From positions 1 to 53,315 of the IMG/VR virus record IMGVR_UViG_3300030519_000023: DNA of 53,315 bases; one strand, given 5' to 3'. Source of the DNA: a virus. Positions 2,764-27,249 of the stretch are shown piece by piece. The translations under genes were made by a program, and so were the position numbers. The notes under the pieces are model-generated. The model worked only from the letters and a program-made list of their open reading frames with translations, did not search any database and had not been told where the DNA came from. Positions within the stretch are counted from its first letter, which is position 1. Each line of letters opens with the position of its first letter.

Positions 2764-3609
2764 TCATTCGTTGACGGCCTTCGGAATCCATGACCCCTCC
2801 GGCATTTCGTCTGGATCGGTTTCGAGGAAGCAGGAACAGGTGATCCCCGGCTGGCGGTAGCCGCCCTTGAACAGGCGGGCCGTGTCTGCGTGGCCGGCCT
2901 TGATGGCTCCATCCTCGATCTGCTCCGCGATGGCGTAGAGGTCGGGGTGGACGGCACGGAGGGCATCCCACTCCTTCTCCCGCATGTTCGGGCAACAGAA
3001 GCAGGAGGACTTACCCACCTCCACCTTCCACCGCCGGTTGATGATGTGGCACTCCTCACGGTTCATGTGCCAGGCCACCAGGGGATACCATGGCATTTCT
3101 GTGGTTAGGTCAACCTCGGGGCTGGAGCAGTAGCGATGTGCCGCTGCCTCAACCCGAGCGCGTTCCCCAGCGTCGTAGCCGATGGCCACGGCGGACCGGG
3201 GGAACCCATGTTCTTTGCGCCACTTTTGCATGGGCTGGATCTTCCACTTCGAGGTGCAGCCGGCCAGATTGTAGGCTTTGCTGGGAAGGTAGCCTGTGCG
3301 CAGGGCATTCTCATGGATGGGCTCGAAGGTGCCATCCTGCCGGATCCACCTGACCACCTCGAAGGGCCACCCCGCCTTGGCCGCCCAAGCGGCGAACTGC
3401 TCAACGGATCGGTAGGTCTCGGGAGTCTCGCTCCCGGTGTCCGCGAACAGGGTCCAGTCCGGGCGAAGGCCCCGCTCGAAGCAGCCCAGAGCCATAGCCC
3501 AGGAATTCGCCCCGGCACCGATGTTCATCCCCCAGGTATGCAGGGGTGGTAGGGGCGAGAAGATCGGCAGGGGCTCGATCTCGTCCAGGTTGAAAAGGGA
3601 ATCGCTCAA
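2764..3609 (-). CDS. PAPS-reductase/DndC-like adenine-nucleotide alpha-hydrolase protein
   Basis: This 281-residue protein resembles the phosphoadenylyl-sulfate reductase superfamily, whose members act on adenylated substrates in sulfur chemistry and in some DNA modification systems. Visible features are a hydrophobic strand then GAGANS where SGGKDS is usual, a typical DTGSETPETY motif, a CTSKWKIQPM segment, and late cysteines in SSCFCCPN and ITCSCF that could hold a cluster or zinc. The loop change makes standard ATP-pyrophosphatase chemistry uncertain. The start is probably TTG at 3609, with GAGG five bases upstream; an internal ATG at 3528 would cut the first strand. It sits in the early train beside a nucleotidyltransferase-like gene. 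The substrate is unknown. Confidence 0.75.
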   Translation of the reverse strand: MSDSLFNLDEIEPLPIFSPLPPLHTWGMNIGAGANSWAMALGCFERGLRPDWTLFADTGSETPETYRSVEQFAAWAAKAGWPFEVVRWIRQDGTFEPIHENALRTGYLPSKAYNLAGCTSKWKIQPMQKWRKEHGFPRSAVAIGYDAGERARVEAAAHRYCSSPEVDLTTEMPWYPLVAWHMNREECHIINRRWKVEVGKSSCFCCPNMREKEWDALRAVHPDLYAIAEQIEDGAIKAGHADTARLFKGGYRQPGITCSCFLETDPDEMPEGSWIPKAVNE

Positions 3610-3646
3610 GGGTGCCTCGGAAGGTTCACGGGTTTGGACAGGTGCG

Positions 3647-3979
3647 CTAGGTGCGCGGGGTGATGGAGAGGTCGATCCCAGACCGGCCCTCGTTGGGCGG
3701 GGCCTGGAGCAGCGGGAAGAACCACGCAAGGCGGCCGTGAGGCATGGCCTGGGGTGTGTAGGGGAACTCCGTCTGGTGGTTGAGCCACTTGACGCGCTTC
3801 CACATGGCCAGGGCCAGGACTTCAGGCGCCACAGCCTCATCCGTCCAGGGGATCGCCACCACATCCATGTCGTTGGCGAGGGAGCCGTGGATCGCCAGGG
3901 CATATCCGTTCTCTCGGGCCACCTCACACAGGCCAGCGTAAAGACCGGCGTAGGCGGGGGCGATGTTTGCGGTTTTCAT
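3647..3979 (-). CDS. nucleotidyltransferase-like small protein
   Basis: The product has 110 residues. The segment AIHGSLANDMDVVAIPW matches a minimal nucleotidyltransferase motif (G-S-x-x-x-D-x-D), followed by a conserved PHGRLAW block and an IDLS ending known from many small phage proteins. The family occurs widely in phage early regions but its reaction is not established. The start is the second of two ATGs, seven bases after AGGAG. It lies immediately upstream of the PAPS-reductase-like gene and is likely cotranscribed with it. Confidence 0.75.
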   Translation of the reverse strand: MKTANIAPAYAGLYAGLCEVARENGYALAIHGSLANDMDVVAIPWTDEAVAPEVLALAMWKRVKWLNHQTEFPYTPQAMPHGRLAWFFPLLQAPPNEGRSGIDLSITPRT

Positions 3980-8008: not shown

Positions 8009-11000
8009 CTATGCCGCTGCCGGATTCGCTTGCCCTGCCCTGGCCCGAACTGCCTTCAGGTCCCCGGCCAGCCCGGAGTCATCCTGGAAGCCATTGGGAT
8101 CCTGGAAAATCTCGCCCAGGACGCCCTTGCGCTTGATGCGCTCCATGTTGTTCTTCTCCCATGGGTGATCAGCCTGGAGAGTGATGCTCTCGACGTTGTC
8201 CTTCTGCCCCAGGCGCCAGATGCGGGCCGTCCGCTGGTTGTGGACCATGGCCGTCGACGGGATGTCGTGGTGGATGATGCACTTCCCATGCTGGAGATTC
8301 AGCCCGGTGGCGCCGGCATCGCTCATGACGATCACGTCGGCCTGTCCGCTGTCGAACCGGGCCGCCTTCGCCGCCTTGTCCTTGGAACTGTCCTTGCCGG
8401 TGAGACTGGTGGCTTTGATCCCAGCTTTCTCCATGGCCGCCTGAATCGACGCGACGGCCTCCAGGTTGTGGCTAAAAATGACGACCGGCTTTCCCTCGGC
8501 GATGCGCTCCTTGGCGATGCGAACATGCTCCGCCATCTTGCCGCCCTCGGGATCCAAGTTGATGATCCGGTTCATAGCCGATTCACGCATGGTCCCGACG
8601 GCTTTTCGCACCTTCTCGGCGATGGCCTGGTGGTCGGCCTCGGGCTTCCCGTCGAAGGACTTGGGTGCCAGCATCTTGGCCCATTTCACGGTGTCGGGGG
8701 CCCCGGTGCGGAGTTTCCCGCTGGCCAGCTCCACCTGGTCCACGGCCTGGTGCTGCTTGTCGGTAAGGGCGACCGACGGATTGGACTTGTAGCATTCCTT
8801 CCCTGGGTCGACGCGGCCGTTGAACCAGTACCGGGCCAGTTCCTGAGCCATGGACTTCTTTGCCAGGGGCGCGTCGTTCTTGTATCGCCGCATGAATTCG
8901 TCCTTCGACTCGGGCGGATACTTGTGAGGGTCGATCTTGTTCAGGTTTGACCAGACCTCCGACACGTCGTTTTTGAGGGGGTCGCCCGTGGCCATTACGA
9001 CATGCTCAGAGTTGTAGGAGTGGGCATCCAGCACCTTGCTCCAGGTGGAATCCTCCTTTCCATCCCGGTCCAGGGCGCCGTGGGCCTCGTCCACCATCAT
9101 GGCGTTGAAGTCGATCCCAGCCTTGATGAACGCTTCCTTGACGGATGCAGCGGCGTCCTTGGGGGATGCCGAATGCAGAAATTCCCTGGCACCCTCGGGC
9201 CCGCTGCCCAGGTGGTCGCCCAGGATCTTTAGGGTATCGTCCCGAAGGGTCTGGTGGGTCACGACGACCGCCTGCTGGTCGGGGTCGCGGTAGGCGGCCA
9301 GCCTCTCGTCGTAGCTCTCGCCCGGGGCGGCATGGACATGAAAGCCGCTGGATGGGTCGATGAACCGGATGGCTTCGGCGCCGAACTGGGCCTGGACGAC
9401 CGACGGGACGGCGATGATGCCCTTCTTGAGCTTCCCCTGCTGGTGAAGGGTCGTGAGGCTGCCCAGCATGATCGGGGTCTTGCCGCTGCCGGCGCCATAG
9501 AAAAGCCCCATCCGTTTGAGCTGGGTGATCGCCTTGACGGCCCTCTGCTGCTGGACGTATTTCCCGCTCATGTGGAGCCCGTCCTGGACGTTCACTGACC
9601 CCTTTCGCCCAGCAAAGGGCGCCGACGCGGCCGGCATGAGCCCCCGGATTTGGTTCTCCAGGGCAGTCCCAAGGTGGTAGCGTTCCCCGGGCGCCAGCTC
9701 GGGCTTCTCCCATGCGGCAGCCGGCGCCTCCTCTCTCCCGGGCTCCGGCTCCTCGGTTTCGTTCAAGTTGAATAGGGCCCCGTCCTGGACCTTTGCTAGG
9801 GCCTGGGCTGCCTTCGCCTCCTTGAGCTTGTCTCCGACCTTCCCCGCCCCGAACTGGCCGCCGCCCTTCTTCTGGAGCTTCGCCTGTTGGGACTTGCGAT
9901 CTGCGGCCAGGGCCTCGGCCTCCTTGTCTCCCAAGGTCATCTGGAGGTGCGCCTGGGCCCCGGAAATGTCGGCCGTCGCCATCTGGAGCTTCTGGCCGGT
10001 CAGGTGGTGGTAGTGGTCGTGGAAGGCTTCATTGAGCTGCCCCCGCATCACGTCCTGGATGGCGCCCTGGGCGAACTTGGTCCCACCCATCCGCTGGATG
10101 TAGCTGTCCCAAAGGGTCGGCTTGGTGGCGTCCTCGTGATATTCGGATTCGAGCTGCTGCCGCTTGTTGTTCCACTCCACCCATTTGTCCGACGCGGCTC
10201 CCTCAGCGTCGGCCGCGTCGTCGTCGCTCATGCCGGCGAATAGATTCATGGACTGGACTTCGGCGTTGGTCTTCTCGGGCTCGGGGCCCAGGTTGCCGAT
10301 GGCCTGGTCGAATTTCCACTTCTTGGCGTCGTCGCTGTTCGCCTTGCCGCCGAAGTGTTCCTTGTAGAAGAAGTCCCGGATGGCCGACGCGTGTTCGTGG
10401 GTCAGTTCGCCCTGGGGGATATAGGCGGCGGCCAGCCGGGGATCCTTGGCCAGTGCCCGGTGAAGTGCCTCATGGAAGTTTCCATCGTCCTGCACCCGCT
10501 GGCCCTGGAGGGTCGTTCCTGCCTCATTGGGGTTCGCGGCCATGTAGCCCTGCATCATGGGATCCAAGTCGGCTGCGATCTCGTGGGGGGCCCGGACGCG
10601 GGTCTTGAGCATGGGCTTCCCGTTGATCTCTATGGGCTTCCCGGTCTCCTTGTCCTTTTCCTGAATGGGCTGGCTCTTGGCGTCCTTTTCCACGACCCGC
10701 AGGGGGACCATCTCGTTCATGGCTGCGTCCCAATGAGCCTGAGCTTCCGGGGAGAGGTCCAGCTTGGCCCCGCCATAGACGCTGGCAACGATGTCCTCGG
10801 GTCGTTCCCCGTCGGCCAGCCGTGAGCCCATCCATGCCTGGAGCTTCCCCTTCACCGCCTCAGCGTCGTCTCCGTCCTGGATATCGTGGTGCCGCTGGAA
10901 TTCGGCGGGCTCCATTTCGGGGTTGGAATACCGGTCGGCCAGCCGATTGGCGAACCCAGCCGGGATCCAGTTGTCCTCATCCTGCTGGCCACCCTTGAGA

Positions 11001-13483
11001 GACAAGGCCACCTCCCTCTCGCCCAGGGCCGCGCAATCCACCGGCTTGACCATGGCGTCCATAGCTGCGCCCTGGGCGGTGATGACGGCCTCCCCGTCCT
11101 CGTGGCTGATCTGGTAGCTTCCCTCGGGCATCCCAAGGGCGGCTGCCGTCATGACTGCCTTCTCAGGGGTCATCTTGCCCAGAGGGATCTGGTACTCGTT
11201 CAGAGGGGTGGAGTGGAGGGCGGCGATCAGGGCAGCTCTCGCTTCCAGTCGCCCCAGGGCCCCGCCCAGGACCCGACGCGCCTCTTTCAGGGCCTCCACC
11301 TTATTCTTCTGGATCTCTACAGCGGCCGGGATGTCGTGAGCTACTTCCAGGAGTTCCTGGTCACATTGGGCAGCCTTGGCCCGGAGAGCCTGGGCGTCCT
11401 CGGTCACCTGGGGAAGCAAGGTCTCCTGCTCTTGGAGGTGGTGGTGCTCCAGAGCCTCCAGGACGGCTTGCTGGTCCTCGGGGCTGAAGTTCTGCCGAAG
11501 GGCACGGGCGACGACGTGGGCAGCCCCCTCGGGCCCCAGGCACTCAACAACGTCCCGGTCGATCATTCCCTGGCCCAGGGCCGCCAGGCCGACATCGTGC
11601 AGAAGGTCAAAGGCGCCGGCTCCCCGGCTCTGGTGCATTCCCTCCATTTCGCCGGTCTTGAACGGGTCGATGTCGCTCCCCTCGGGGAATCTCTCGCCCA
11701 CCTCCTCCAGGAATCCCTGGACGTGCTGGGTCAGGAGCTGCTCGTGCAGGGACTGGACCAGGGCTTCGTGTTCCTCGGGGGTGCCGACGGCCATCTGGAA
11801 CCCCGGCTCGAAGGTGATCCCCTTCTTGGCTGCCATCTGCTGTTTGTAGGTCGCCCGGAGTGCCTGGCGGGCCCGCAGGAGGTGGGCCAGGGTCTCATTG
11901 GACTCCAGGGATTCCTTCACGGCGTCACGCATGGCGGCGGCCTTCTGTGCCTGGAGGTCTTTAGTCGCCTTGTGAATCTGGATGTTCGCGGCCTGTTCCT
12001 CCGGGCTCTTGGGGCCCGTAGCCTCCTTGGGCGCCTTGCCTTCGGCAGCTTGAATCTCGTTCACGGCAGCCATCAGCTTTTCGCTGGTCATGCCGGCCTT
12101 CTCTGCCCGCTCGGCCAGCTTCTGGTTGTAGCCGGGCCCGGACTTGCCCTGGGTTTCCGAGAGGATGGCGTCCAGGTCCATAGGGGAATCCCCGCCGACC
12201 AAGTTGATCCCGCTGGCTCCCCGGGCCTCGGCGTCCAAGAGAACCTTCTTCTCTGCCTCGGCGACGATCTTCTTGGCCTCGGCCAGCCGGGCCCGGTGCG
12301 CCTCCTTGGCAACCTTGGGGTCGTCCTCGCCCTTGAACAGATCCTCATGGTCGCCGCCCTGGCCACCTGTGGCGGTTCCCAGGACGTCGTTGATGAACTT
12401 GTCCTCGGCCTGCTTGCGCTCCGCCCGAGCCCCGTCAGAGACCTCCCGCTCCTTGGCGAGGTCATCGGGTGACAGGCTGGCCTTCCGCTTCGCCTCGGCC
12501 TCGCGGCGGCCCTTGGCGTTGGCCCTGGACTCCTCCTTGTATTGTGCCGGGTTCTTCAGGCCATGCAGTCGGAGCCCATTCAGTTTTCCCTGGGCGCCAC
12601 CGATGACGCGGGCAGCGCCGTTGCTACCCTGGATCGGCTGGATGAGGAGAGGGTGGCCCTTGGAACCGGGCCCGTCGGGGTGCGCGGTAATCCAGTGGGC
12701 CCCGGCGGGGATGGGGTCTCCGCCCTTGACGATGGTGCGCCAGCCGTCACGCCGTCGCTGGTCCTCGGCGCAATGACAGCAGTTGAGCCCGTCGCCTTGG
12801 TAGTCCGGTGGCTTCGGGCCACCGCACCGGGCCTTGCAACCATCCGGCCTCGGGAAAATCCAGCCGTGCCCAGAATTAGGCATGTCGGGGTCCCAAAGCT
12901 GTAAGCCCTCTGCTTCGCTCTTGGCGATGGTCCGGGTGGCGTTCTCATCTGCCAGCCAGTCCTTGAAGTCGTCGATGGTGTGGGCGGCGATGGAGTGGAA
13001 GCCGTCCCAGCCCTTGCTGTAGTTGGCGAAGTAGGCAGCCTTGGCCTCCGCCTCGGTGTCCCATCCGATCATGACCTTGTGTTCATCGAATTCGCCAGAG
13101 AGCGGATCCACCTGATTGACGATGAAGACCGACTGGCTCTCCGGGTTGGGCCCGACAAAGCAATCCACCCCGTCCCCGTCTGCCCCGAAGGACCGCTTGC
13201 AAAATCCATAATGGTTGGCCATCTTGACCGACCACTTCGTCCCGCAGGAGTCAACCCCGCTTCGGATACTCCCGACGGGATTCTCAATGGCGATGGGGAT
13301 CCCCTGGACGACGATGTGCCCGCGCCGGCCGCCCTCCCGTGGCTCGGCCTTCCCTGCCTGTCGATCCAGATCTGGGGTGGTCAAGGGCTTGATCTTCAGG
13401 GCGATAGTGGGGGTCCAGCCGACGGGAATCAGCCACCCGGTTTCCCCGGATTCGTTATCGGTAAAGGGGATTCCGGCGTTCAT
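8009..13483 (-). CDS. giant polyvalent protein: pyrophosphatase-like domain plus SNF2 helicase
   Basis: This 1824-residue protein has an N-terminal inorganic-pyrophosphatase-like domain (about residues 55-180: ENPVGS, HYGF, DGDGVDCFVG, EHKVMIG), a domain known from phage polyvalent proteins. A Cys-rich patch and a W-I-T-A-H-P-D-G-P segment follow near residues 205-300, then a long Glu/Ala/Gln-rich helical middle. The C-terminus is a SNF2-type ATPase: Walker A GAGSGKT near 1333, DEAH near 1464, ATGDPLKND, ATGLNLQ, and QRTARIWRLGQ near 1755. Such proteins are thought to travel into the cell with phage DNA and protect or remodel it. The start ATG follows GAGG and is preceded by a 40-residue frame. 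Delivery is inferred. Confidence 0.85.
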   Translation of the reverse strand: MNAGIPFTDNESGETGWLIPVGWTPTIALKIKPLTTPDLDRQAGKAEPREGGRRGHIVVQGIPIAIENPVGSIRSGVDSCGTKWSVKMANHYGFCKRSFGADGDGVDCFVGPNPESQSVFIVNQVDPLSGEFDEHKVMIGWDTEAEAKAAYFANYSKGWDGFHSIAAHTIDDFKDWLADENATRTIAKSEAEGLQLWDPDMPNSGHGWIFPRPDGCKARCGGPKPPDYQGDGLNCCHCAEDQRRRDGWRTIVKGGDPIPAGAHWITAHPDGPGSKGHPLLIQPIQGSNGAARVIGGAQGKLNGLRLHGLKNPAQYKEESRANAKGRREAEAKRKASLSPDDLAKEREVSDGARAERKQAEDKFINDVLGTATGGQGGDHEDLFKGEDDPKVAKEAHRARLAEAKKIVAEAEKKVLLDAEARGASGINLVGGDSPMDLDAILSETQGKSGPGYNQKLAERAEKAGMTSEKLMAAVNEIQAAEGKAPKEATGPKSPEEQAANIQIHKATKDLQAQKAAAMRDAVKESLESNETLAHLLRARQALRATYKQQMAAKKGITFEPGFQMAVGTPEEHEALVQSLHEQLLTQHVQGFLEEVGERFPEGSDIDPFKTGEMEGMHQSRGAGAFDLLHDVGLAALGQGMIDRDVVECLGPEGAAHVVARALRQNFSPEDQQAVLEALEHHHLQEQETLLPQVTEDAQALRAKAAQCDQELLEVAHDIPAAVEIQKNKVEALKEARRVLGGALGRLEARAALIAALHSTPLNEYQIPLGKMTPEKAVMTAAALGMPEGSYQISHEDGEAVITAQGAAMDAMVKPVDCAALGEREVALSLKGGQQDEDNWIPAGFANRLADRYSNPEMEPAEFQRHHDIQDGDDAEAVKGKLQAWMGSRLADGERPEDIVASVYGGAKLDLSPEAQAHWDAAMNEMVPLRVVEKDAKSQPIQEKDKETGKPIEINGKPMLKTRVRAPHEIAADLDPMMQGYMAANPNEAGTTLQGQRVQDDGNFHEALHRALAKDPRLAAAYIPQGELTHEHASAIRDFFYKEHFGGKANSDDAKKWKFDQAIGNLGPEPEKTNAEVQSMNLFAGMSDDDAADAEGAASDKWVEWNNKRQQLESEYHEDATKPTLWDSYIQRMGGTKFAQGAIQDVMRGQLNEAFHDHYHHLTGQKLQMATADISGAQAHLQMTLGDKEAEALAADRKSQQAKLQKKGGGQFGAGKVGDKLKEAKAAQALAKVQDGALFNLNETEEPEPGREEAPAAAWEKPELAPGERYHLGTALENQIRGLMPAASAPFAGRKGSVNVQDGLHMSGKYVQQQRAVKAITQLKRMGLFYGAGSGKTPIMLGSLTTLHQQGKLKKGIIAVPSVVQAQFGAEAIRFIDPSSGFHVHAAPGESYDERLAAYRDPDQQAVVVTHQTLRDDTLKILGDHLGSGPEGAREFLHSASPKDAAASVKEAFIKAGIDFNAMMVDEAHGALDRDGKEDSTWSKVLDAHSYNSEHVVMATGDPLKNDVSEVWSNLNKIDPHKYPPESKDEFMRRYKNDAPLAKKSMAQELARYWFNGRVDPGKECYKSNPSVALTDKQHQAVDQVELASGKLRTGAPDTVKWAKMLAPKSFDGKPEADHQAIAEKVRKAVGTMRESAMNRIINLDPEGGKMAEHVRIAKERIAEGKPVVIFSHNLEAVASIQAAMEKAGIKATSLTGKDSSKDKAAKAARFDSGQADVIVMSDAGATGLNLQHGKCIIHHDIPSTAMVHNQRTARIWRLGQKDNVESITLQADHPWEKNNMERIKRKGVLGEIFQDPNGFQDDSGLAGDLKAVRARAGQANPAAA

Positions 13484-13490
13484 GGGTGCC

Positions 13491-13613
13491 TCAAAATTCG
13501 ACTTGCAATCCTGCTTGGACGGGGGCATATTTCTGGAGTGCAACAGGGGGGCGGAATATAGCCGGACCAATCCCCAAGTAGGCCCGTCCGAGGCTACCCC
13601 TTTGGCGGGCCAT
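13491..13613 (-). CDS. 40-residue coupled small protein
   Basis: An ATG overlapping the stop of the 215-residue gene (TGATG), with GAGG seven bases upstream, opens a 40-residue frame (MARQRGSLGRAYLGIGPAIF...). It ends two bases before the binding-site core of the giant gene. It fills the gap exactly, so it is plausible, though the small size leaves doubt. It is basic and hydrophobic. Function is unknown. Confidence 0.45.
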   Translation of the reverse strand: MARQRGSLGRAYLGIGPAIFRPPVALQKYAPVQAGLQVEF

Positions 13614-15927: not shown

Positions 15928-17043
15928 TCAAAAATCCATGTCTTGCCAGAATCCAGTGGGTTCCTCGGGGGCGCCCTTGGGGGCCTTCGGCGGCGGGACG
16001 TATTTTGGAACCGGCCGAGGCCCAGCTCCCAGAGCCTCAGCCAGCCCGTGGTCGGTGGCCATGTTGAGGTAGTGGTAGAGGAGAGACCGGGGCACCAGGG
16101 AGACCGCCTGGCTCTCCCAACCGCAATCCGTTGGGGTTCCCCCGACGCGCCTGGCCGTGTAGTACCTGGCCGTCGTGGTGGTCCTCTGGACATCCTCCAA
16201 GAACCCGGTGATCTCCGCCTTCAGTCCGCACTCCTCGAATGCCTCCCGGATCGCGGTGGCCTGGAGGGCGTCGTCCCCGTCGACGTGGCCCTTGGGGAAC
16301 GAGCCCCGGTAGCCTCCGAACTGGTTGGTGGGATGGATAACCCAGACCCGGCCGTCGGGCTCCTCGATCACCAGCCCGGCGGCCGGCGCCTTCCCCTCGG
16401 GGAGGGGGGGCTCCTGAATGGTCGGGTCCTGGCCCTCAACCTCCATCCAGTCCTCGTCCGTCGTCGGGTGGTCGGCCCAGGGCGCCATGGCGACCCCGTT
16501 TAGGGACGCGGGGGCCTTCCCGCCCGGGATCCAGGTTGCGACGGCACTGGGGTCCTCCCAGGTGTCCGCCCCGGTGGCCTTGGACGGATCCTTGATATAG
16601 GCGTCATTCCCCTTCTCGTCCAGCTTGGGGTGCTTCTTGGCCCCAGGGTTGTGCTTGAGGAAATAGGCCAGTTGTTCCTCGGGGGTGTATTTCGGCTTCT
16701 CCGGGGCTCCTTCCGGCTTCGCCCAGGACCACTTCCCGGACGGGGCCTGGCCGGCGGAGTGCGAGGGGGCCTGGCCGGTCTTGCCGGGGATCTTGAACGG
16801 GGCCGACGTGACCGGCTTCGATGCCTGGGTGCCGAAGTGGTTGTTCTTCCACGGCTGGTAGCCGATCTTGTCGTCCGGGTTGACGTGCTTTGGCGGCGGG
16901 GCCGGCGCCATGTTGACCGGCTTCAGGTTCTTGGGGGCGGCTTTGGATGGCGGGGCCTGGGCGGCGGCCCGGGAGTCCTCATGCTCGGGGATCCAGACCC
17001 GCTTGCCGTTGAATTCGCGGAAGAAACCCTTGATCTCCCTCAT
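15928..17043 (-). CDS. Nudix hydrolase with N-terminal cargo tag
   Basis: This 371-residue protein starts MREIKGFFREFNGKRVWIPE, a version of the F/Y-R-x-x-N-G-K-x-V tag found on neighbouring proteins. A Pro/Lys-rich linker of about 200 residues follows, then a Nudix domain near residues 215-330. The Nudix box reads G-x5-D-x7-REAFEECGL, with Asp where the first Glu is usual. Nudix enzymes hydrolyse nucleoside diphosphates linked to another group, for example ADP-ribose, NADH or RNA caps; which one is unknown. Its operon partner is an ADP-ribosyltransferase-like protein, so ADP-ribose or NAD is a reasonable guess. The ATG overlaps the upstream stop (TAATG) after GGGGAGGGG. Confidence 0.82.
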   Translation of the reverse strand: MREIKGFFREFNGKRVWIPEHEDSRAAAQAPPSKAAPKNLKPVNMAPAPPPKHVNPDDKIGYQPWKNNHFGTQASKPVTSAPFKIPGKTGQAPSHSAGQAPSGKWSWAKPEGAPEKPKYTPEEQLAYFLKHNPGAKKHPKLDEKGNDAYIKDPSKATGADTWEDPSAVATWIPGGKAPASLNGVAMAPWADHPTTDEDWMEVEGQDPTIQEPPLPEGKAPAAGLVIEEPDGRVWVIHPTNQFGGYRGSFPKGHVDGDDALQATAIREAFEECGLKAEITGFLEDVQRTTTTARYYTARRVGGTPTDCGWESQAVSLVPRSLLYHYLNMATDHGLAEALGAGPRPVPKYVPPPKAPKGAPEEPTGFWQDMDF

Positions 17044-17504
17044 TACCCCTCCCCGGTCAGAAGGAATTTGATGGCACTCTTGACGGCCCGCTGGAGCATG
17101 AAGCCAACCCATTCCGGGTCCTCGTCTCCACCATGGAGATCATTCGCCGACTTCACGACCTGGGTAGCCAAGAACAGGAAGAATGCCTGGCCCGGATCCT
17201 GACTGGGTTCCTCGAATTTGACCGACCGCTGGGCCCTTACGTGAGCCCCCAGACGGTCGGGAGTATTCCATTCGGTGGCGTAGAACGTTGGGTCCTTCCC
17301 CATGAAGGCGTCACCCAAGACCGTAGCCTTCAAGCGAATGGCAGCCATGGCATCGTCCCTGGTTGCCACTCCTTTCCCGAAGGAGTCGTAATCCTTTAGG
17401 ACATCGGCCACGAATTTCTGAACGATGGCGCCCACGTCGCCCAGGTCATTGAGGGCAACCTTCCCTTTTGGCTGGTGGTCGAAGTTCAGCGAGTTTCCGA
17501 TCAT
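17043..17504 (-). CDS. cargo-block protein, 153 residues, unknown
   Basis: This mostly helical protein begins MIGNSLNFDHQPKGKVALNDLG, with AAAGGGG upstream and its ATG overlapping the stop of the 916-residue gene. The region YATEWNTPDRLGAHVRAQ and the C-terminal FMLQRAVKSAIKFLL helix are distinctive but not recognised. Tight coupling between the ADP-ribosyltransferase-like and Nudix genes suggests a shared job, such as chaperone, packaging partner or inhibitor of the large protein. This is inference from position. Confidence 0.7.
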   Translation of the reverse strand: MIGNSLNFDHQPKGKVALNDLGDVGAIVQKFVADVLKDYDSFGKGVATRDDAMAAIRLKATVLGDAFMGKDPTFYATEWNTPDRLGAHVRAQRSVKFEEPSQDPGQAFFLFLATQVVKSANDLHGGDEDPEWVGFMLQRAVKSAIKFLLTGEG

Positions 17505-20251
17505 ACCGTCACCCCTTTCTTAAACTGGTCAACGGAATCAACGAAGGTCGGGTCAGGAGGGAGCATGAGCAATTCGAGTTTCATCGTTTTCCCGTCAGAA
17601 GCCTTACCCTTGCTTAATATCATAAACCGCTGCCCGGGGAGGGTCGTGATCTCCTGTTCGCTGGACATGCTATGGGATCCGTAGGAATCCATGGCCTTGG
17701 CTCCTTCAGCATAGTGAATCTCCAGGAGGAGGTCGCTCCCGAAGTGCTTATGGCTGCCCCAGTCCTCGCCCTTGGAACAACACATAGAATCGGTATTCTG
17801 GAAAAGCAATCCCGGCTCCGCCTGTTGAAGCTGCTTGGCCATGGTAGAGGGAATGTCCATCCAGCGCCAGAGACGGGCCCCTTCGTGCTTCGGAATGGCG
17901 TATTCGTAGCTCTCTTTGATTGCCAATTTGATGTCAGTCCCGCCATAAGAAACGTCATTCCCTTTGAAGTGGTGATTAATCGAACCGGTGGATTGGACGT
18001 TGCTGATGTAGGACTTCAGGTTCTTCGGCATCTTCTCGTATTGGGAATAACCCAGTTTCGCCTCAGCCGGAGTAACGTTGCTTCCGGCGTTCTTGGGTCT
18101 GAAGTCTTCTGGGTTTGCCACGCTGCCAAGCAGCATGAAGTATCCGAGAACCTCGGAGCTATCAATGTTATCGGTGTTCTTACCGAACGGTTTGGATGGG
18201 AAGGCATCTGAAAGGCCAGAAACATCCTCTGCCTGAGCAAGGGAGTAGGTCTTCAGCTTCTCAGAACCAGGGTTTGCTACCACATCCATGTAGGCAACGA
18301 GACCGGACCAATACTGTTTGACATGAGTGCTGGGATGCTGTTCGATGGGGATCAGCTTGGATTCCCCAGTCCCCTTGTCGACTAGATGGACCTGTAAGTT
18401 CTTCAACCGAACCAGGTCCCCCTTCATGGCCGCCCGGTGGACCTCGGCGGCGGCCTCCTGATTCGCTTCGTTGACCTTTTGGGTTGCAGAAAGTCCCTTC
18501 CCTTGGCCGTTCCAGTCGAGGAAGTCGGGCGGCTTGGGAATCTGAGCTTTATCCACCGGGAGCCTCTTTGGGTCAGGCTTGGGGGGATGAGCGATAGCCT
18601 CGGCCTCCGGGAACTGCTTGGCGAGGTAGTTTTTCCGGGCGATCAGCTTGGCCGACAGGGCGGCCTTTTGGTTGTCGTCTCCGGGGCCAAAAAGCTGGAC
18701 TGCCTTGGCGATAACGTCGTCTGGCATTTCCAGTACCGGAACCATGCTCTGGTTCATCTCCTCCTGAGTCATGGAGCCGAAGACGGAGGCAGACTGGGGA
18801 TTCTTGACCGCATCCTTCAGTGTGTGGATCTCGGGGACAGTGTTCCCGAAAGCTGGCCCCTTCTGGCCGCCCTGTGCCCGGAAGTCCAGAGCCCCGCCGG
18901 GGTCGATCCGCACAGCCTTTCCGTCGGGACCGACCAGCAGGTTGTCATAACCCAGGCCGACCACATCCCAATTCGCCAGCCACGCGTCGGCGCCGAACCC
19001 TTCCTTGACCCCGGCTTTTGCCCCCAGAGCTTCCCCGTCGCCGACCTTTGCCAGGCCCTCTTGGAAAGCAGAGGCGATCCCAAGCTTTCCGTCCTTCTGG
19101 ACCAGCTTCACCTTGGGGGCACCGATGCCCATCAGGTCGTAGAACTTGGCGGCCAGCATTTCACTCTTGGCCTGATCCTCGCTCCCTGGGAACTTGATAT
19201 ACCACTTCTTGCCGAAGGCGTCCTCATACAGGCCACCCGGGTTCGATCCCTTCTGTGGGCCAATCTGCTTGAATGGGAACGCCTTGGGAAGCGGGGCTAC
19301 CTTGGGAACCACCGTGGCCGGTCCCTTCTTCTCGACCAGCTCCCACCGATGGTTAGCGTTCAGGACGTAGGTCTGCCCGTTCTCCAGCTTGGTATCGCCG
19401 ATCTTGGGCCCCGTCTGGTCGCCCATCCCCTTGAACTTGAAGGCATCCTTCCACGACTTCTTGCCCCACAAACCAGGGACCGCCGTGAAGGTCATATCCT
19501 TGCCGTCCGCCTTGAGCTTGATCCCGCCGTCGACGGCCGGGTTGTTGACGACAGAGTAGGTGTCGCCCCCGTACTCGAATTGCATTCCCTCTTTAACCTG
19601 GGAGAATGCGGGGTGCGACCCGATAGTCGGGGTCTTGTCCGCCTTGGGCTTGGTTGGAGCCTTCCCGACGGCCACCTGGGCTTCCAAGTGAGCCGCCAGG
19701 GCCAGGTATTCATCCTTGGGCACCAGGTAACTCTGCTGCTTCTTTTTGTATCCGGCTGGGTGCATTGCCGCAATGGCTTTGGCTACGGCCGCCTTCATCG
19801 GGGTGCCGTCGTCGTTCTTCTTGCTGACCATGAAGAACTTTCCGCTGGGCGTCGAGAGGTGGACGTAGAACCCGCCGAGGTTGGCAGAATGCCCCTTGCC
19901 GATGGCCTGGAGCTGATCCACAAGGCTGGGCTCGGCCGCCTGGGGCTCGGTCGTTGCTGGAACGGGATCCGGCTCCGGCTGCGCCTCGTCACCCCCAAAC
20001 ATCTTTTCAAAGTCCCGGTCCACGTCGAACGAAACGGCTCCATGCGGGGGGGCGGCTGCCTCTCGGGGGGGCTCGGTGCCCTTGGGTGCTATGGTGGTGG
20101 CACCGGGTTCCTTCGGCGACTCCTGGGCGTCGGGATACATCCTCGCAAAATCATCGTCCGTGGTTCCCTTGACCTCGTAATCCCGCCCCTTGACATGGAC
20201 GAGCTGGCCGTGGACGGTGCGGTAGAAGTCTTTCCCGTGATGGAGGGCCAT
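17501..20251 (-). CDS. cargo protein: kinase-like domain plus ADP-ribosyltransferase-like domain
   Basis: The protein has 916 residues. The tag GKDFYRTVHGQLVHV is at 6-20, then an acidic linker. A small module near 120-195 is followed by GDTKLENGQTYVLNANHRWE near 285-305. Residues about 335-470 look like an atypical kinase: YEDAFGKKWYIKF, an E in SEMLAAKFY, NWDVVGLGYDNLLV as catalytic loop and RIDPGG as metal motif. Residues about 730-895 resemble an R-S-E ADP-ribosyltransferase: R in LWRWMDIP near 797, DSMCCSKGED, and EQE in SSEQEITTLPGQRF near 868. Such enzymes move ADP-ribose from NAD to protein, often Arg. Family calls rest on motif reading only. It is coupled to the 153-residue gene. Confidence 0.75.
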   Translation of the reverse strand: MALHHGKDFYRTVHGQLVHVKGRDYEVKGTTDDDFARMYPDAQESPKEPGATTIAPKGTEPPREAAAPPHGAVSFDVDRDFEKMFGGDEAQPEPDPVPATTEPQAAEPSLVDQLQAIGKGHSANLGGFYVHLSTPSGKFFMVSKKNDDGTPMKAAVAKAIAAMHPAGYKKKQQSYLVPKDEYLALAAHLEAQVAVGKAPTKPKADKTPTIGSHPAFSQVKEGMQFEYGGDTYSVVNNPAVDGGIKLKADGKDMTFTAVPGLWGKKSWKDAFKFKGMGDQTGPKIGDTKLENGQTYVLNANHRWELVEKKGPATVVPKVAPLPKAFPFKQIGPQKGSNPGGLYEDAFGKKWYIKFPGSEDQAKSEMLAAKFYDLMGIGAPKVKLVQKDGKLGIASAFQEGLAKVGDGEALGAKAGVKEGFGADAWLANWDVVGLGYDNLLVGPDGKAVRIDPGGALDFRAQGGQKGPAFGNTVPEIHTLKDAVKNPQSASVFGSMTQEEMNQSMVPVLEMPDDVIAKAVQLFGPGDDNQKAALSAKLIARKNYLAKQFPEAEAIAHPPKPDPKRLPVDKAQIPKPPDFLDWNGQGKGLSATQKVNEANQEAAAEVHRAAMKGDLVRLKNLQVHLVDKGTGESKLIPIEQHPSTHVKQYWSGLVAYMDVVANPGSEKLKTYSLAQAEDVSGLSDAFPSKPFGKNTDNIDSSEVLGYFMLLGSVANPEDFRPKNAGSNVTPAEAKLGYSQYEKMPKNLKSYISNVQSTGSINHHFKGNDVSYGGTDIKLAIKESYEYAIPKHEGARLWRWMDIPSTMAKQLQQAEPGLLFQNTDSMCCSKGEDWGSHKHFGSDLLLEIHYAEGAKAMDSYGSHSMSSEQEITTLPGQRFMILSKGKASDGKTMKLELLMLPPDPTFVDSVDQFKKGVTV

Positions 20252-20254
20252 GGT

Positions 20255-22885
20255 CTACTCCATCTCTTTCAGTTTGGTCATGGCCTTTTTGGCGTAGCCG
20301 GCCCATTTCTGGCCGAAGTCGCCCCAGGACGGCCCTTCCTCGGATTTATTCGGGAGCCCCTGCTTTGCCTTGTGCCCGGCGACGAGCGCCAGGTGCTTGG
20401 CGTGTTGGACGTAGCTCTCCAGCTCTTTCTTGCTGGGGGTGTAGCCGGAGTCCTTGGTGATGGCGAGGTGGGTATCGCTCAATCCGTCCATGATGGGTTT
20501 GGTCGCGGCATCCCAGTCGTGTTCGTGCCACTTCTCCGAGGGAGGCTTCGGCATGAACGGATCGGGCTTGACTGCGACCTTCGGCGTCTGGCCAAGAGAA
20601 TCAGCCATCTTCCCGTGATATTCGGCCAGGGCGGCATGAGCCTTGGCGGCTGCGGTATGGCTGCTCTGGAGGTGCGCCGGCCCAGGCTTGATGGGGGTAT
20701 CGGTCAGGTTGAAGGAATTGCCAAGTTGGGCGTGATACACCCCAGCCTTCCCATGGGCTCCGGCCGCCTTCAGGTGTGATTCGGCATCTCCCATGTTCGC
20801 GGCATTGCCGGAGGCATACTGGGCAGCCTCGGAATAGGCGTGAGCATCACTGGCATGTCCGGTGGCCTCGGGGTGATGCGCCGTGATCTTTCCGGCGAGG
20901 TCCGAGATAGCATGGGCCAAGTCGCTGGCTCCGCCCGGGGTTGGATTATCTTTGAACCCGGCCCCGGCACCCTTCACGACGCCCCTGGCCTCCTGCACCT
21001 GGGGGTGGGCTTCTTCCCAGTCCAACACGTCGGTATCGGGCATGACCTGGGCGTTCTTGGTTCCCCACTCCTTGGCCGCCTTCTTGATGCTCTCGATGAC
21101 TGCGTTCCCAGAGACGCCCAGGTCTTTGGTGTGCATCTTGCCGTCGGCGAATTCATACCAGACCTTCCCGCCCGGATAGGAAAGGCCCGCCTGGAGGTGG
21201 TCCTTGGCGTTGAAGTAGATCCGATGCTTGGCTCCCTTGGTCCACTCCTTGCCGACCCCGGCCAGCTCGGCGACGGTGGGCATGGATCCCCCGCCCTGCT
21301 CCTCCGGGTGCTGCTCGATGGCCAGCTCCCAGTGGTGATTTTCGTTGAGGACGAACTGCTTCCCGTTCTCGGTCTTGGTATCGCCGACCTTCGGGCCGTC
21401 CTCGTCCGGGACCAGGGCGGCAGCATTGGCCGAATGCCAGCCCATTTGGTAGCCCTTCATGGCGTCGATGTTGCTCCCGACCGGGGCGCCAGGCTTGAGC
21501 TGGGAGTCCATGAAATCTTTGTTCTCGCTTGGGATCACAGAGAGCCCCTTGGCGTGAGCCTCCTGGCCCATCTCGTAGGCCGACTTGGGTTGGGCCGCAA
21601 GGTATGCGGCATCCCCGGCCGCATCCTCAACCTCGCCTTCGGCCTGTTCGATGGCGAATCCTACATGCTTTGCCTTGGCGGCAAGGTGCTGGGCGGCCTT
21701 CTCTTGGTGGTAGTCCTTCAGTTTCTGGCTGATCGGAAGGTCGGCGTCCAGGATGGCCTGGTGAGAATTGGCAGCCGCATCATGGGCAGCTACGGCCGCG
21801 CCATGCTCCGTGGAATTGTGCTTGGAACTCACGGCATGGAACGTGTCGGCTTCCTCGGATTGAGCCGAGGCCAGCCCCGCTCCCTTATGGTATTTGGCCA
21901 TCTGGTTGTGATAGGCGGCATTCGAGAAGTGTTCCTTCTGTGCGTCCCCTTCGCTACCAATCGCCACCTTGGCCTGAGCCACGGCGGCATCCTGATGGGC
22001 CTTTACGGCGGAATCGTGGGTCTGGACATCATCCGTCGGGGAATAGCTGTAGGCGTCGGCCTCCTCGCTGGCTTCCTTGGCTGCTAGGGCATCCTCGGAG
22101 ATGCCGGTCACCTTCACCGGCTCCGGCACGGGGGCCTCCTTGGGCACCTCTGCGCCATGGAGGACCGCCATGACCTTGGCCGCCACCTCGCCGCCGGCCG
22201 CGCCATGCCCGAAGAAGAAATGTGGAAAGGCCGAATCGTTCCCGTGGTGGACCGCTCCGCCCTGCTTGGGCTCCATGGTCTCGCCGGTCACCTTGTAGAT
22301 GGCCTCCTTGATGGCGTTGGCGTCGGCCTTGTTCGCCGCCCGGAGATACCAACCCTTGTTCTTGTTGACGCCCATGGCGGTGCGCTCCGCCAGGGACGCC
22401 ACCTTGGCCCCTTCGGGAGCATGGCCCTCGGTCCACTTCGTCTTGCCCTCGTGGACTGCGTAGTGGCCGACCTTCTTCCCCGCCTTGGCTGGGGGCTGGG
22501 CGGCATGAACCGCGTCATCGTAGGCTGCCACCGGGACCAGCTTGCCGTTGGACTCTCGGAAGGTGGCGTCATGGTGGGACTTGCCGATGGGCCTCTGTTC
22601 CAGGATCGTTCCGTTCGCCATGTGCTTCACTGGCCTGGTCGCCATGGTCGCGGCCAGGGGGCCCGACATGGCTCCCCCCATCGAACCGGCGCATTTGCAA
22701 ACCAGACTGGAGCCCTCGTCCGGGTCCATCCCGTCGTCCACGGCGTCATCGAACGCCTTCAGGAGGTCCCGGCCTTCGTCCACGTCCTCGGGCTTCCGGC
22801 AGAAGTTCTTGGGAAGGCATTTCGCCTTATAGTAGGCACCGGCTTTCATGGCCAGAGCATTGGCATGGTCCTTCTTGATGGCCAC
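20255..22885 (-). CDS. 876-residue His/Ala repeat cargo protein
   Basis: A GTG start with GGAGG four bases upstream. The N-terminus (residues 1-80) is helical with a Cys cluster (CLPKNFCRK, LVCKCAGS). A tag-like segment (HHDATFRESNGKLVPV) lies at 104-119, and a domain beginning ERTAMGVNKNKGWYLRA at 167 also occurs in the neighbouring 327-residue protein. Near 508 a GDTKTENGKQFVLNENHHWE module matches one in the 916-residue protein. Much of the rest is helical with many A-x-x-A-H-x-x-A-A repeats, suggesting a long rod or bundle. No enzyme motif is visible. A role as an internal virion or ejection protein is inferred. Confidence 0.75.
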   Translation of the reverse strand: MAIKKDHANALAMKAGAYYKAKCLPKNFCRKPEDVDEGRDLLKAFDDAVDDGMDPDEGSSLVCKCAGSMGGAMSGPLAATMATRPVKHMANGTILEQRPIGKSHHDATFRESNGKLVPVAAYDDAVHAAQPPAKAGKKVGHYAVHEGKTKWTEGHAPEGAKVASLAERTAMGVNKNKGWYLRAANKADANAIKEAIYKVTGETMEPKQGGAVHHGNDSAFPHFFFGHGAAGGEVAAKVMAVLHGAEVPKEAPVPEPVKVTGISEDALAAKEASEEADAYSYSPTDDVQTHDSAVKAHQDAAVAQAKVAIGSEGDAQKEHFSNAAYHNQMAKYHKGAGLASAQSEEADTFHAVSSKHNSTEHGAAVAAHDAAANSHQAILDADLPISQKLKDYHQEKAAQHLAAKAKHVGFAIEQAEGEVEDAAGDAAYLAAQPKSAYEMGQEAHAKGLSVIPSENKDFMDSQLKPGAPVGSNIDAMKGYQMGWHSANAAALVPDEDGPKVGDTKTENGKQFVLNENHHWELAIEQHPEEQGGGSMPTVAELAGVGKEWTKGAKHRIYFNAKDHLQAGLSYPGGKVWYEFADGKMHTKDLGVSGNAVIESIKKAAKEWGTKNAQVMPDTDVLDWEEAHPQVQEARGVVKGAGAGFKDNPTPGGASDLAHAISDLAGKITAHHPEATGHASDAHAYSEAAQYASGNAANMGDAESHLKAAGAHGKAGVYHAQLGNSFNLTDTPIKPGPAHLQSSHTAAAKAHAALAEYHGKMADSLGQTPKVAVKPDPFMPKPPSEKWHEHDWDAATKPIMDGLSDTHLAITKDSGYTPSKKELESYVQHAKHLALVAGHKAKQGLPNKSEEGPSWGDFGQKWAGYAKKAMTKLKEME

Positions 22886-22895
22886 GGGGCCTCCT

Positions 22896-23879: not shown

Positions 23880-23951
23880 CGGATACTCCTGAATCCCGAT
23901 TGGACCCCGAGCGGAGGGCTTCATCCGTTCCATACCCAGTGCTACCAGCCA

Positions 23952-23971
23952 CCTATGGCGTTGCCCATAGG
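23952..23971. promoter_or_regulatory. inverted repeat in the divergent gap between cargo and capsid genes
   Basis: CCTATGG and CCATAGG form a perfect 7-base dyad with a 6-base centre. It sits midway between the divergent starts at 23879 and 24006 and could be an operator or hairpin serving both late units. A TTGACT lies at 23992 on the plus strand, but no good -10 follows. Confidence 0.45.
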
Positions 23972-24005
23972 ACTTTAGGGTGCCCTTTACCTTGACTCTC
24001 CAGGC

Positions 24006-24866
24006 ATGGGCACCTCCGTTCTTACTCCCGGCCTGGAGACTCGCGGAAGCGGGGGGCACGGAGTCTGCCTACAGTTCGAGCGTTCCGTCTTCAAGGCCCA
24101 GGCCGAAGTTGAGGGTGGCCAGCGGGTCGTCTACCTCGAAGCCAGCACTGAAATCCGGGACATGCAGGGCGACCGGATCCTGCTCTCTGCCCTCGAAGCG
24201 TCCATTCCCTACTTCCTGAAATATGGCCGGCTCGACCTGGACCATGCCTCCGTTCTGGGGCAGATTCGGGGCGTCAAGGTCAACCCCTACGCTTTTGAAA
24301 TCGGGCGTCCTCTGGATGTGCGACTGCGTGATGGCTCCATCTGGGTCAAGGCCGCCATCTATACGGCCGGAGAGGGAAACCGGTTCACTGAAGCCGCCGA
24401 CCTTTTCTGGGACTCCCTTCAATCGAAGCCTCCCGTCATCTGGTATCCCAGCGTGGCCGGCGATGTCTATGCCGAAGAAACCACCTCCGAAGGTGGCCTC
24501 CCCACTCAGGAAGTGCGCGGCATCCGGTGGCACTCCATCGGCCTGTCCCGGACCCCGGTCAATACCGCTGTCGGTTCTGTCACCACCATGCCGGTTCGCG
24601 CCTTCGCCAAAGCATTCTCCGGCCTGGCCGACCTGAAGGACACCCTGGGCTCCCTGGCCCCCGCGCTGCCCTCTCGCGGCCTCGCCACGGCGGCCGGGAA
24701 GGTCCCTGGCGCCGATGACCCCATCTATATCCGCCTCGCCATGGACGCCCTCCTGGAGGCCACGGAGGCGGGTGGCCTGGATGGCTACCTAACCCTCGCC
24801 ACCGAGCGGGGAGTGCCCGCCGATGTGGCCATGGCCCTTCTCGTCGTCCTTCTCTCTCGTCGCTGA
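24006..24866 (+). CDS. capsid maturation protease-like protein
   Basis: This 286-residue protein opens the plus-strand head operon, directly before an acidic scaffold-like gene and the major capsid gene, the usual place for a prohead protease. The segment VVYLEASTEIRDMQGDRIL, then GRLDLDHASVLGQIRG with a candidate catalytic His, and a later W-Y-P-S-V resemble XkdF-like serine proteases that trim scaffold and capsid. The C-terminal third is a helical tail (about residue 200 on). The ATG has only a weak AGG upstream. The protease call rests on motif resemblance and gene order. Confidence 0.6.
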   Translation: MGTSVLTPGLETRGSGGHGVCLQFERSVFKAQAEVEGGQRVVYLEASTEIRDMQGDRILLSALEASIPYFLKYGRLDLDHASVLGQIRGVKVNPYAFEIGRPLDVRLRDGSIWVKAAIYTAGEGNRFTEAADLFWDSLQSKPPVIWYPSVAGDVYAEETTSEGGLPTQEVRGIRWHSIGLSRTPVNTAVGSVTTMPVRAFAKAFSGLADLKDTLGSLAPALPSRGLATAAGKVPGADDPIYIRLAMDALLEATEAGGLDGYLTLATERGVPADVAMALLVVLLSRR

Positions 24867-25800: not shown

Positions 25801-27249
25801 ATGGACGTTCTTTCGATCCTCGGCCAGTTGGCCGAAACTTCCGCTGATCCCCGGATCCGCACCCTGGTCAAGTCCCTGACCTCCACCCAGGCGGGCGTGA
25901 ACCTCGCGGCCCTGACCGGCGGCGGCGCAACGCGGGTGGAAGCCCTGGAGCCGGAACTGGCGACCGCCACCGTCCAGAATCCCCACTTCGTGCTGTTCAA
26001 CCTCCTGTTCCCCAACCGACACACGAGCTGGAGCCTGATCGACCAGCAGGTTGTCCAGGACGGCATCGGCGGATACCCCGGCAGCGCGGTCTCCAACGAA
26101 ACCGGCTCCAACCTCAACCAGCGCAACGGCGCCTACCACCGGGTCATCACCGAGCTGAAGGTGCTGGCTGAATTCGGCGGCGTCACCGTTCCCACCGCCA
26201 TGCAGGGCGCCCTTCAGCAGGCGGCCGGCGCGGCTGACTTCAACTCGGCCGAGCAGGAAATCTTCTCCGCCCTGTCCCGGGTCCTCCAGACCGCCGAGTG
26301 GGAGCTGATTTTCGGCGACCCCACCATGAGCCCCCTGGAATTCCAGGGCATCATCCCCGGTCTCCTGGCCAACGCCCCCCAGAACGTGCTGAACCTGGGC
26401 GGAATCGCCCTGAACACCGGCAGTCAGGTCGCCCCCCTCGCGGCCCGCATCTCCGGCTTCGGCTCCTGGGGCTCCCCCGACGCCCTGATCGTTTCCCCGG
26501 CTTGCAAGGCGGACTTCGACGGCCACCTGGAAGCGGGATACCGGGTCAACCTGGATGCCAACGTTCCCAGCACCACCCTGGGCGCGATGGTCAAGTCCAT
26601 CAAGTATAACGGCCTGGGCATCGGCAACGGCGTCCTGGATCTCTACCCCCATGTGTTCCTGGACGAGAACATGCGGCAGCCGGTGGAGAACTTCGCCGCG
26701 ACTGAAATCTCCGGCAACGCCCCGGCCTCCATGACCGGTGTCGCCTCCGGCGCGACCGGCTCCATCCCCGCCGGCACCTATGCCTACCGGGTGGAAGCCG
26801 CCGGTCCCGGCTTCGTGTCGTCCTCGGTCCTCGTGACTGGCTCGACCGTCGTCGTCGCCGCGACCAACCAGGTGGCCCTGACCATCACCCAGTCCTCGGG
26901 TGCGGCCGAGAGCTACTACAACGTCTACCGCTCCAGCAAGAACGGCAGCACCGCTTCCAATATGTGCCGGTTCATCGGGCGCGTGGCCAAGACCGGCGCA
27001 ACCACCGTGTTCACCGACACCAACGCCACCATTCCCGGCACTTCCCAGGCCATCATGCTGACCTCGGCCCCGCAGTATGACGCTCTGCGTCTGGTGCAGA
27101 TGGCGCCCCCCAGCAAGATCCCCCTCGCCATGACCACCCTCCAGTATCAGTTCGCGGTCATGTATCTGGCTTGCCTCCGGCTCTCCCTGCCGAAGAAGCA
27201 TGCCCTGATCACCAACATCCTGCCCTCCAACGCCACCTGGCTGCCCTGA
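25801..27249 (+). CDS. major capsid protein with Ig-like insertion
   Basis: This 482-residue protein has AGGAG before the ATG and is followed by a strong terminator, as expected for the most abundant product. The N-terminal part and the segments HTSWSLIDQQVVQDGIGG, QTAEWELIFGDP and LIVSPACKADFDGHLE fit an HK97-fold capsid of the type with long N-arm strands. Residues about 308-413 form a separate Gly/Thr/Val-rich beta domain (IPAGTYAYRVEAAGPGF, YYNVYRSSKNG) like an Ig or fibronectin-type fold, probably exposed on the capsid surface. The chain then returns to the capsid core (QYDALRLVQMAPPSKIPLAM). Assignment rests on order, size and pattern. Confidence 0.75.
   Translation: MDVLSILGQLAETSADPRIRTLVKSLTSTQAGVNLAALTGGGATRVEALEPELATATVQNPHFVLFNLLFPNRHTSWSLIDQQVVQDGIGGYPGSAVSNETGSNLNQRNGAYHRVITELKVLAEFGGVTVPTAMQGALQQAAGAADFNSAEQEIFSALSRVLQTAEWELIFGDPTMSPLEFQGIIPGLLANAPQNVLNLGGIALNTGSQVAPLAARISGFGSWGSPDALIVSPACKADFDGHLEAGYRVNLDANVPSTTLGAMVKSIKYNGLGIGNGVLDLYPHVFLDENMRQPVENFAATEISGNAPASMTGVASGATGSIPAGTYAYRVEAAGPGFVSSSVLVTGSTVVVAATNQVALTITQSSGAAESYYNVYRSSKNGSTASNMCRFIGRVAKTGATTVFTDTNATIPGTSQAIMLTSAPQYDALRLVQMAPPSKIPLAMTTLQYQFAVMYLACLRLSLPKKHALITNILPSNATWLP

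Follow-up and report, generated by a model that had tools for sequence, protein, structure and literature searches.

What kind of phage protein carries a pyrophosphatase-like domain at one end, a SNF2-type motor at the other and about a thousand residues of chain between them, and where in the infection cycle would it act? The locus that raises this question lies in the window analyzed here, an entire virus record, 53,315 bases long (IMG/VR record IMGVR_UViG_3300030519_000023), in which a preliminary description had placed an 1824-residue polyvalent protein with pyrophosphatase-like and SNF2 helicase modules.

The gene and its coding status

The whole gene occupies 8009..13483 on the minus strand, and the plus-strand translation of the same interval contains several stops and no intact frame. 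The open reading frame covers 8009-13570 if a TTG start is used and gives 1824 aa from the ATG at 13483; the ATG is supported because the homolog L003 begins at the equivalent codon (MTTGIAFTD.. in L003, MNAGIPFTD.. in the record protein). Differences at codon positions 1, 2 and 3 number 331, 233 and 686 over the 1608 codons aligned with L003 (73% amino acid identity), and 417, 330 and 780 over the 1750 codons aligned with L087 (69% identity), such that the third position holds the most differences in both comparisons. These counts rule out a chance open reading frame, and the protein described earlier is therefore a real coding product, though of the minus strand. All of the motifs first read in it (HYGF, DGDGVDCFVG, GAGSGKT, DEAH, and QRTARIWRLGQ) are present, and their survival in profile alignment, on which the preliminary description had staked its assignments, is borne out, as the InPase, SNF2-rel_dom, and Helicase_C matches all score above the Pfam cut-offs.

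The N-terminal InPase domain

The InPase domain spans residues 54-177 (12953..13324, minus strand), as placed by Pfam, profile, fold comparison, and alignment. In the record protein the Pfam InPase model (PF18823) matches with an E-value of 5.7e-47 (159.4 bits, cut-off 26.8). A profile of 48 InPase rows, with a mean column identity of 44%, found 36 sequences in the PDB, of which the best is the portal 9b41 (“gp19 Portal”, E 4.1e-43). The other 35 are weaker (E 0.0056-1.7), and 32 of them are inorganic pyrophosphatases, counting 3i4q, which is named as a pyrophosphatase in the Foldseek list and not in the profile-search list; the remaining three are EXLX1, a ribosomal protein, and a queuosine-salvage protein. 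The predicted model of residues 35-330, which takes in the InPase domain and the small KLN module described below, has a pLDDT of 80.1. With this model, Foldseek gave pyrophosphatases in all of the best 50 of 171 rows (best E 3.3e-04), four of them at E ≤0.001 and with low TM-scores, while the best VIA match (Z 6.7, rmsd 3.6, 114 residues aligned) has a Z that is middling taken alone. Hence the sequence profile and the predicted fold both support a family I pyrophosphatase-like N-terminal part, as first suggested from its motifs.

The candidate active-site residues are E67, R74, Y92, D102, D104, D107, D133, E134, and K136, which we take to be the counterparts of known pyrophosphatase residues. 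Across 83 non-redundant, unpicked InPase rows, E67, R74, Y92, G93, D107, D133, E134, and K136 are invariant, while D102 is kept in 79 rows and replaced by E in four, and D104 is kept in 75. The full invariance of the acids that appeared in 11 columns of the earlier 48-row alignment, which was hand-picked from 84 rows, does not hold, as D102 and D104 vary over the 83. All six of D102, D104, D107, D133, E134, and K136 are kept in 75 of the 83 rows, including the record protein, and the set of acids and lysine is incomplete in eight (L024, L042, L049, L050, L052, L054, L068, and L070), where D102 or D104 is altered, mostly to E.

We considered whether the InPase might be a binding or docking module without catalysis, either in the record protein or in some members of the family. 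The eight incomplete rows and the wide divergence elsewhere in the domain are consistent with such a role, but the record protein has the full set and seven candidate catalytic residues are invariant in the 83 rows, and we regard this possibility as distinctly improbable.

The C-terminal SNF2 module

The SNF2 N-lobe covers about residues 1311-1560 (8804..9553, minus strand), with the Walker A motif GAGSGKT from residue 1330 and DEAH from 1465, and matches Pfam SNF2-rel_dom (E 8.8e-07, 28.7 bits, cut-off 24.9). The Helicase_C lobe follows at residues 1661-1759 (8207..8503, minus strand; E 4.5e-14, 53.1 bits, cut-off 23.5), with QRTARIWRLGQ at its end (residues 1750-1760). Both Pfam domains and motifs I, II, and VI of a SWI2/SNF2 ATPase are thus in place, and the C-terminal assignment made earlier stands as a predicted SNF2 ATPase. 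Inteins occur in this module in some relatives. Two lie within Walker A, between GxG and SGK (L003:11355-12452 and L124:4482-5489; Pfam Intein_splicing E 4.9e-11 and 2.8e-07, respectively, the latter under the curated cut-off), and a third lies at another site, behind the VKND motif of the N-lobe (L149:12559-13716; PF14890, E 2e-10).

The conserved core between the two modules

Residues 255-1310 (9554..12721, minus strand) form a conserved, mostly helical core as judged from alignment and a predicted model. It begins with a small beta module of the pattern WIT..GGxGGKLN (about residues 258-306; 12566..12712, minus strand), recognized in the alignment and the predicted model, for which we coin the name KLN and which is shared with a fusion of portal, InPase, and ADP-ribosyltransferase (ART). 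The profile phrog_62 matches the core and SNF2 module of the record protein together with an E-value of 1.6e-62 and the core alone with 1.3e-17, and all six core rows match it. On this profile evidence, the middle and the SNF2 module belong together in a single phage family, phrog_62, whose conservation extends over about 1000 residues. The preliminary description had left about 1000 middle residues unassigned, which is correct for Pfam, where nothing comes near a cut-off, and incorrect for PHROGs; the middle, which it suggested may hold new domains, is no private patchwork and belongs to a conserved family, and the first ~75 core residues look like a separable small module, as they are also found behind the InPase in L055. 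That protein combines portal, InPase, and KLN, with KLN directly behind the InPase, and has an ADP-ribosyltransferase-like end.

Searching IMG/VR with the alignment of six core rows yielded 111 related stretches, of which 80 were retained, and a single scan of bacterial genomes identified 13 core loci (ten proteobacterial and one each from Thermus, Calidithermus, and Neomarinimicrobiota). Residues W264, G296, G299, D642, R643, D835, and W839, among others, are invariant in a 54-row core alignment, the numbering of which is shifted by 254 relative to that of the protein. Across all loci, with repeat contigs counted, the core is matched on 91 ORFs, and the SNF2 module is also matched in all 85 of those with a full core, although in L124 only its first part is present even though the contig runs further. 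In the other six ORFs the core is incomplete: L108, L154, and L162 end with the contig, L137 terminates 95 bases short of the contig end, and the first module alone is present in L055 and L057.

The predicted core model is of middling quality (mean pLDDT 71.8, pTM 0.40) and consists mostly of long helices, with the small beta module first and a patch of mixed alpha/beta structure around model residues 509-556. Searches for a known enzyme hidden in the core were uninformative throughout. Pfam applied to the six core rows at E-values up to 5 gave only stray single-member matches (DUF6033, 0.0026; HD, 0.074; RQC, 0.099), neither Foldseek against the PDB nor a viral-structure search gave any match to the core model at E ≤0.001, and the best VIA match (Z 7.6) is in that tool's range for common arrangements. 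Tape-measure proteins ranked first in the viral-structure search, which we attribute to shared long helices. It should be noted that the lack of a fold match does not imply a new fold, because the mean pLDDT is 71.8 and the core was modeled whole rather than domain by domain.

Exchange of N-terminal domains

The placement of the InPase was surveyed in 54 loci, comprising 53 non-redundant relatives and L003. It is fused to the core protein in nine, encoded by a separate nearby gene in 16, and carried on a DarB-like methylase in one, and it was not found in 28, nine of which have less than 7 kb of upstream sequence. No second InPase was found in the nine fused loci within the available sequence. 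The InPase is an optional graft on the core-SNF2 protein. Indeed, Pfam applied to the N-termini of ten relatives found InPase in five, ART-PolyVal in L103, MuF_C in L148, LPD3 in L124, and no match in four. Such swapping of N-terminal domains is the behavior of polyvalent proteins as set out in the available text of Iyer et al. (2017; PMC5512222), where both InPase and SWI2/SNF2 are counted as polyvalent domains. The combination of InPase and SNF2 in one chain, together with relatives bearing ART-PolyVal, MuF_C, and LPD3, supports the polyvalent label that the protein was first given. The order InPase-core-SNF2 was not seen in the same text, and the record protein, in which the parts follow one another in an uncommon order, is a genuine polyvalent protein of a broad family that libraries label “DNA helicase”. 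A 6369-residue ORF elsewhere (L021:2298-21407) matches InPase-bearing and DarB-like PHROG profiles over its first 2901 residues.

Genomic context

The window encodes tail sheath and baseplate proteins, a head maturation protease (24006..24866, plus strand), and a major capsid protein (MCP; 25801..27249, plus strand), and is therefore that of a myophage. Profiles from Mecenats66 recognized no portal or terminase on it, nor did PHROGs in the 35 ORFs of the record that were scanned, and the record may thus be incomplete. The gene lies on the strand opposite to the protease and MCP genes, 10 kb away, and not between portal and protease.

The relatives are arranged differently. We compared 53 of them, non-redundant at 85% and drawn from 73 in which the core is nearly complete. 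In 42 of the 53, the same strand carries a prohead protease gene downstream of the core-SNF2 gene, and this holds for 36 of the 39 loci for which 3 kb or more of downstream sequence is available. The MCP follows the protease in 37, while 31 have a portal or minor head protein upstream and 24 have a DarB-like methylase-helicase at the locus. In the named phages PHB04 and Mecenats66 the portal precedes the core-SNF2 gene and the MCP follows it, and in Cumys both protease and MCP follow; Lalka8 is an exception, with baseplate genes next. Because the gene sits among head genes in related phages, its product probably travels in the virus particle and enters the host with the DNA.

A cassette is common to the record and L003 with its order kept, consisting of the genes at 17501 and 17043, a NUDIX gene, those at 15435, 14823, and 14260, the core-SNF2 gene, and DUF932. 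The L003 contig begins inside this cassette, and at its edge L087 has the first part of a divergently oriented protease-like gene. The NUDIX protein (15928-17112, minus strand; 394 residues) has its NUDIX domain on the C-terminal side (PF00293, E 6.9e-13) and places nucleotide pyrophosphate chemistry adjoining an InPase. The 916-residue protein of 17501-20251 (minus strand) has no Pfam, PHROG, or NCBIfam match at an E-value of 1; by eye, one stretch may resemble a kinase and the end an ADP-ribosyltransferase. Cross-matches show that this and the 876- and 387-residue proteins of 17501-24059 (minus strand), as well as their L087 relatives, have short repeated stretches in common. Elsewhere, 2764-3927 (minus strand) encodes a phosphoadenosine phosphosulfate reductase-like protein (phrog_424, E 6e-31; Pfam PAPS_reduct under its cut-off).

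A short peptide before the core

Between the InPase and the core is a Cys-rich spacer (about residues 190-253; 12725..12916, or 12725..12934 with RTIAK, minus strand) that is absent from L003. It is preceded by RTIAK (TIAK at 185-188) and ends in RTIVK, an arrangement that resembles an insertion bounded by a short repeat. The TIVK at residues 250-253 (12725..12736, minus strand), followed by G, lies just before the core and is the record form of a hydrophobic-K-[A/S/G] junction peptide, which we define as two hydrophobic residues, optionally one more, K, and then A, S, or G, located ≤25 residues before the KLN tryptophan. The peptide is present in all 38 loci whose N-terminus is short (500 shuffles gave a mean of 4.7 and a maximum of 11) and in all 14 whose N-terminus is long (shuffles, mean 0.8, maximum 4), which amounts to all 52 loci measured, three of the 55 being left out as the KLN tryptophan was not found in them; a narrower count gives 39 of 40. 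In the record model TIVKG sits in a stretch with confidence below 50. The peptide is missing from L055 despite its KLN module, which speaks against a tag.

A strict form of the peptide occurs at the N-terminus of 28 of the 53 core-SNF2 proteins, 11 of 24 methylases, and six of 11 stand-alone InPases (two of which, L095 and L108, have an identical N-terminus; there are 11 here and 16 in the placement survey because overlapping ORFs were thinned). By comparison, it is found in three of 118 other upstream ORFs, three of 117 in between, and none of 35 after the MCP, and in none of 22 proteases, 24 minor head proteins, 15 MCPs, eight portals, and four terminase proteins. In loci that have no core it is present in two of 229 other ORFs and in none of the 77 InPase ORFs, many of them giant, which excludes the tag as a property of the InPase itself. 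The record protein has no strict N-terminal form and only the inner K-G form. A match of the tag to phage P1 was likewise ruled out, as the exact motif is absent from the N-termini of DarB and the other P1 Dar proteins listed. Counts of a loose form of the motif also speak against a tag: it occurs in 18 of 100 other upstream ORFs and in 21 of the 89 that lie between the core-SNF2 gene and that of the MCP, yet in only two of 35 capsid proteins and in none of 11 portals and five terminases. The record head protease carries VFKA, but the loose motif says little in proteases because the family is rich in it along its whole length (62 of 122 internal windows). None of these tag counts translates into a probability, since the loci are related, each start was guessed as the first M, and the pattern was defined with the data already in view.

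We see the peptide as a new lead, possibly to a packaging or maturation signal; it could serve as an address tag or a docking motif, or be cut by a protease. The HK97 protease cuts after K. A more specific proposal is that the peptide, with two to four hydrophobic residues ahead of K and A, S, or G, is a common signal on otherwise unrelated head-cargo proteins in this group of phages, N-terminal on methylases, stand-alone InPases, and core-SNF2 proteins and left as an inner junction when InPase, ART, or MuF_C is fused in front. As such it might be a capsid-targeting tag or a prohead-protease site, in which case the fusion would be a polyprotein that is cut to free a pyrophosphatase and a SNF2 translocase in the maturing head. 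We consider this proposal rather unlikely.

Comparison with known systems

The closest named proteins are those of phrog_62, annotated as “DNA helicase”, from PHB04 (ATI15643.1; Bordetella), Mecenats66 (ORF61; Morganella), and the Thermus phages (Cumys_43 and Lalka8_42). They have the same core and SNF2 module as the record protein (24-32% identity) but no InPase, and their genes, unlike that of the record, are on the head-gene strand. The P1 protein DarB resembles the record protein in having a SNF2 module in a very large chain, and darB adjoins the portal and protease genes and is divergent from them, a divergence also seen in the record. However, DarB has an N6-methylase in its chain, while the record protein has an InPase and gave no Pfam match to a methylase, although the DarB-like protein of PHB04, used as a control, gave N6_Mtase (PF02384, E 1.8e-10). 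The record protein is therefore not a DarB. The portal-InPase fusions (gp19 Portal of PDB 9b41, and L055) have the same InPase subfamily, but there it sits on a portal, and L055, with KLN directly behind it, lacks the helical core and the SNF2 module and has an ADP-ribosyltransferase-like end instead.

According to the available text on polyvalent proteins, such InPases may act on pyrophosphate or infection-induced nucleotides, SNF2 modules that accompany methylases may guard injected DNA, and SNF2-type motors travel on duplex DNA without strand separation (PMC5512222). In the available parts of the P1 literature, the virion contains the Dar proteins, with ~40 copies of DarB per particle by bulk measurement, and a reporter is targeted to the capsid by the first 30 DarB residues alone (PMC9024508); the Dar proteins enter the host together with the DNA (PMC12810830). 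We found no description of the core-SNF2 protein as such or of the junction peptide in the literature searched, most subscription journals lying outside that search, and the accessible parts of papers on relatives (PMC11437467 and PMC9503643) make no mention of mass spectrometry.

A hypothetical role as head cargo

We now put forward a hypothetical mechanism in which the record protein is polyvalent head cargo, packed in the prohead and injected with the DNA in the manner of DarB but with no methylase; we would give it an even chance of being correct. Specifically, the phage would make the protein alongside its head proteins, pack it into the prohead, and eject it with the DNA. Once in the cell, the SNF2 module would track along the entering double-stranded phage DNA and might block or displace host enzymes such as restriction complexes, as has been proposed for DarB, while the pyrophosphatase module would hydrolyze pyrophosphate or a pyrophosphate-bearing nucleotide of takeover or defense. 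The long helical core would link the motor either to the head or to partner proteins. Our analysis establishes the gene and its modules, the conserved core, the head genes around it in relatives, and the swapping of InPase and other effector domains at the N-terminus; that the protein is packaged, injected, and catalytically active, what it acts on, and what the core does are inferred, and the antirestriction step in particular would be borrowed from DarB, which carries a methylase that the record protein lacks. Several observations weigh against this mechanism, namely the divergent position of the record gene 10 kb from protease and MCP (although P1 darB is also divergent from its portal gene), the baseplate genes behind the Lalka8 gene, the portal and terminase not recognized in the record, the 28 of 54 loci in which no InPase was found, and the middling quality of the core model.

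Two other roles must be weighed against this one. The protein might instead be an intracellular DNA helicase for replication or recombination that lies near head genes by an accident of operon structure, as the label of phrog_62 and its filing under DNA, RNA and nucleotide metabolism would suggest, and as the baseplate genes that follow the Lalka8 gene might also indicate. Such a helicase would be hard to reconcile with the protease downstream in 42 of the 53 loci, with grafts of ART-PolyVal and MuF_C that are not replication parts, and with a type of motor that moves on a duplex without separating its strands (PMC5512222); moreover, in the available text on Mecenats66, ORF99 and ORF109 are other helicases, presumed to be the replicative ones (PMC9503643). 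We therefore think a replicative role unlikely. Alternatively, the protein could serve the head itself and not be an injected effector, with a scaffold-like or portal-associated core, a SNF2 module that aids DNA loading, and an InPase that clears pyrophosphate. The adjoining protease and MCP genes in relatives would fit such an assembly or packaging role, as would the long helices of the core model and the presence of the InPase on portal proteins (L055 and 9b41), but the ART-PolyVal, MuF_C, and InPase domains at the N-termini of relatives are of types proposed, in the available text, to function inside the host once injected (PMC5512222), and on balance this role also seems improbable to us.

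If the injected-cargo mechanism is true, a large phage family now labeled “DNA helicase” would join the head-carried takeover proteins, and one pyrophosphatase would be seen to move among portal, methylase, helicase, and free forms. The short peptide before the core would then be a candidate address tag by which proteins are directed into phage heads.
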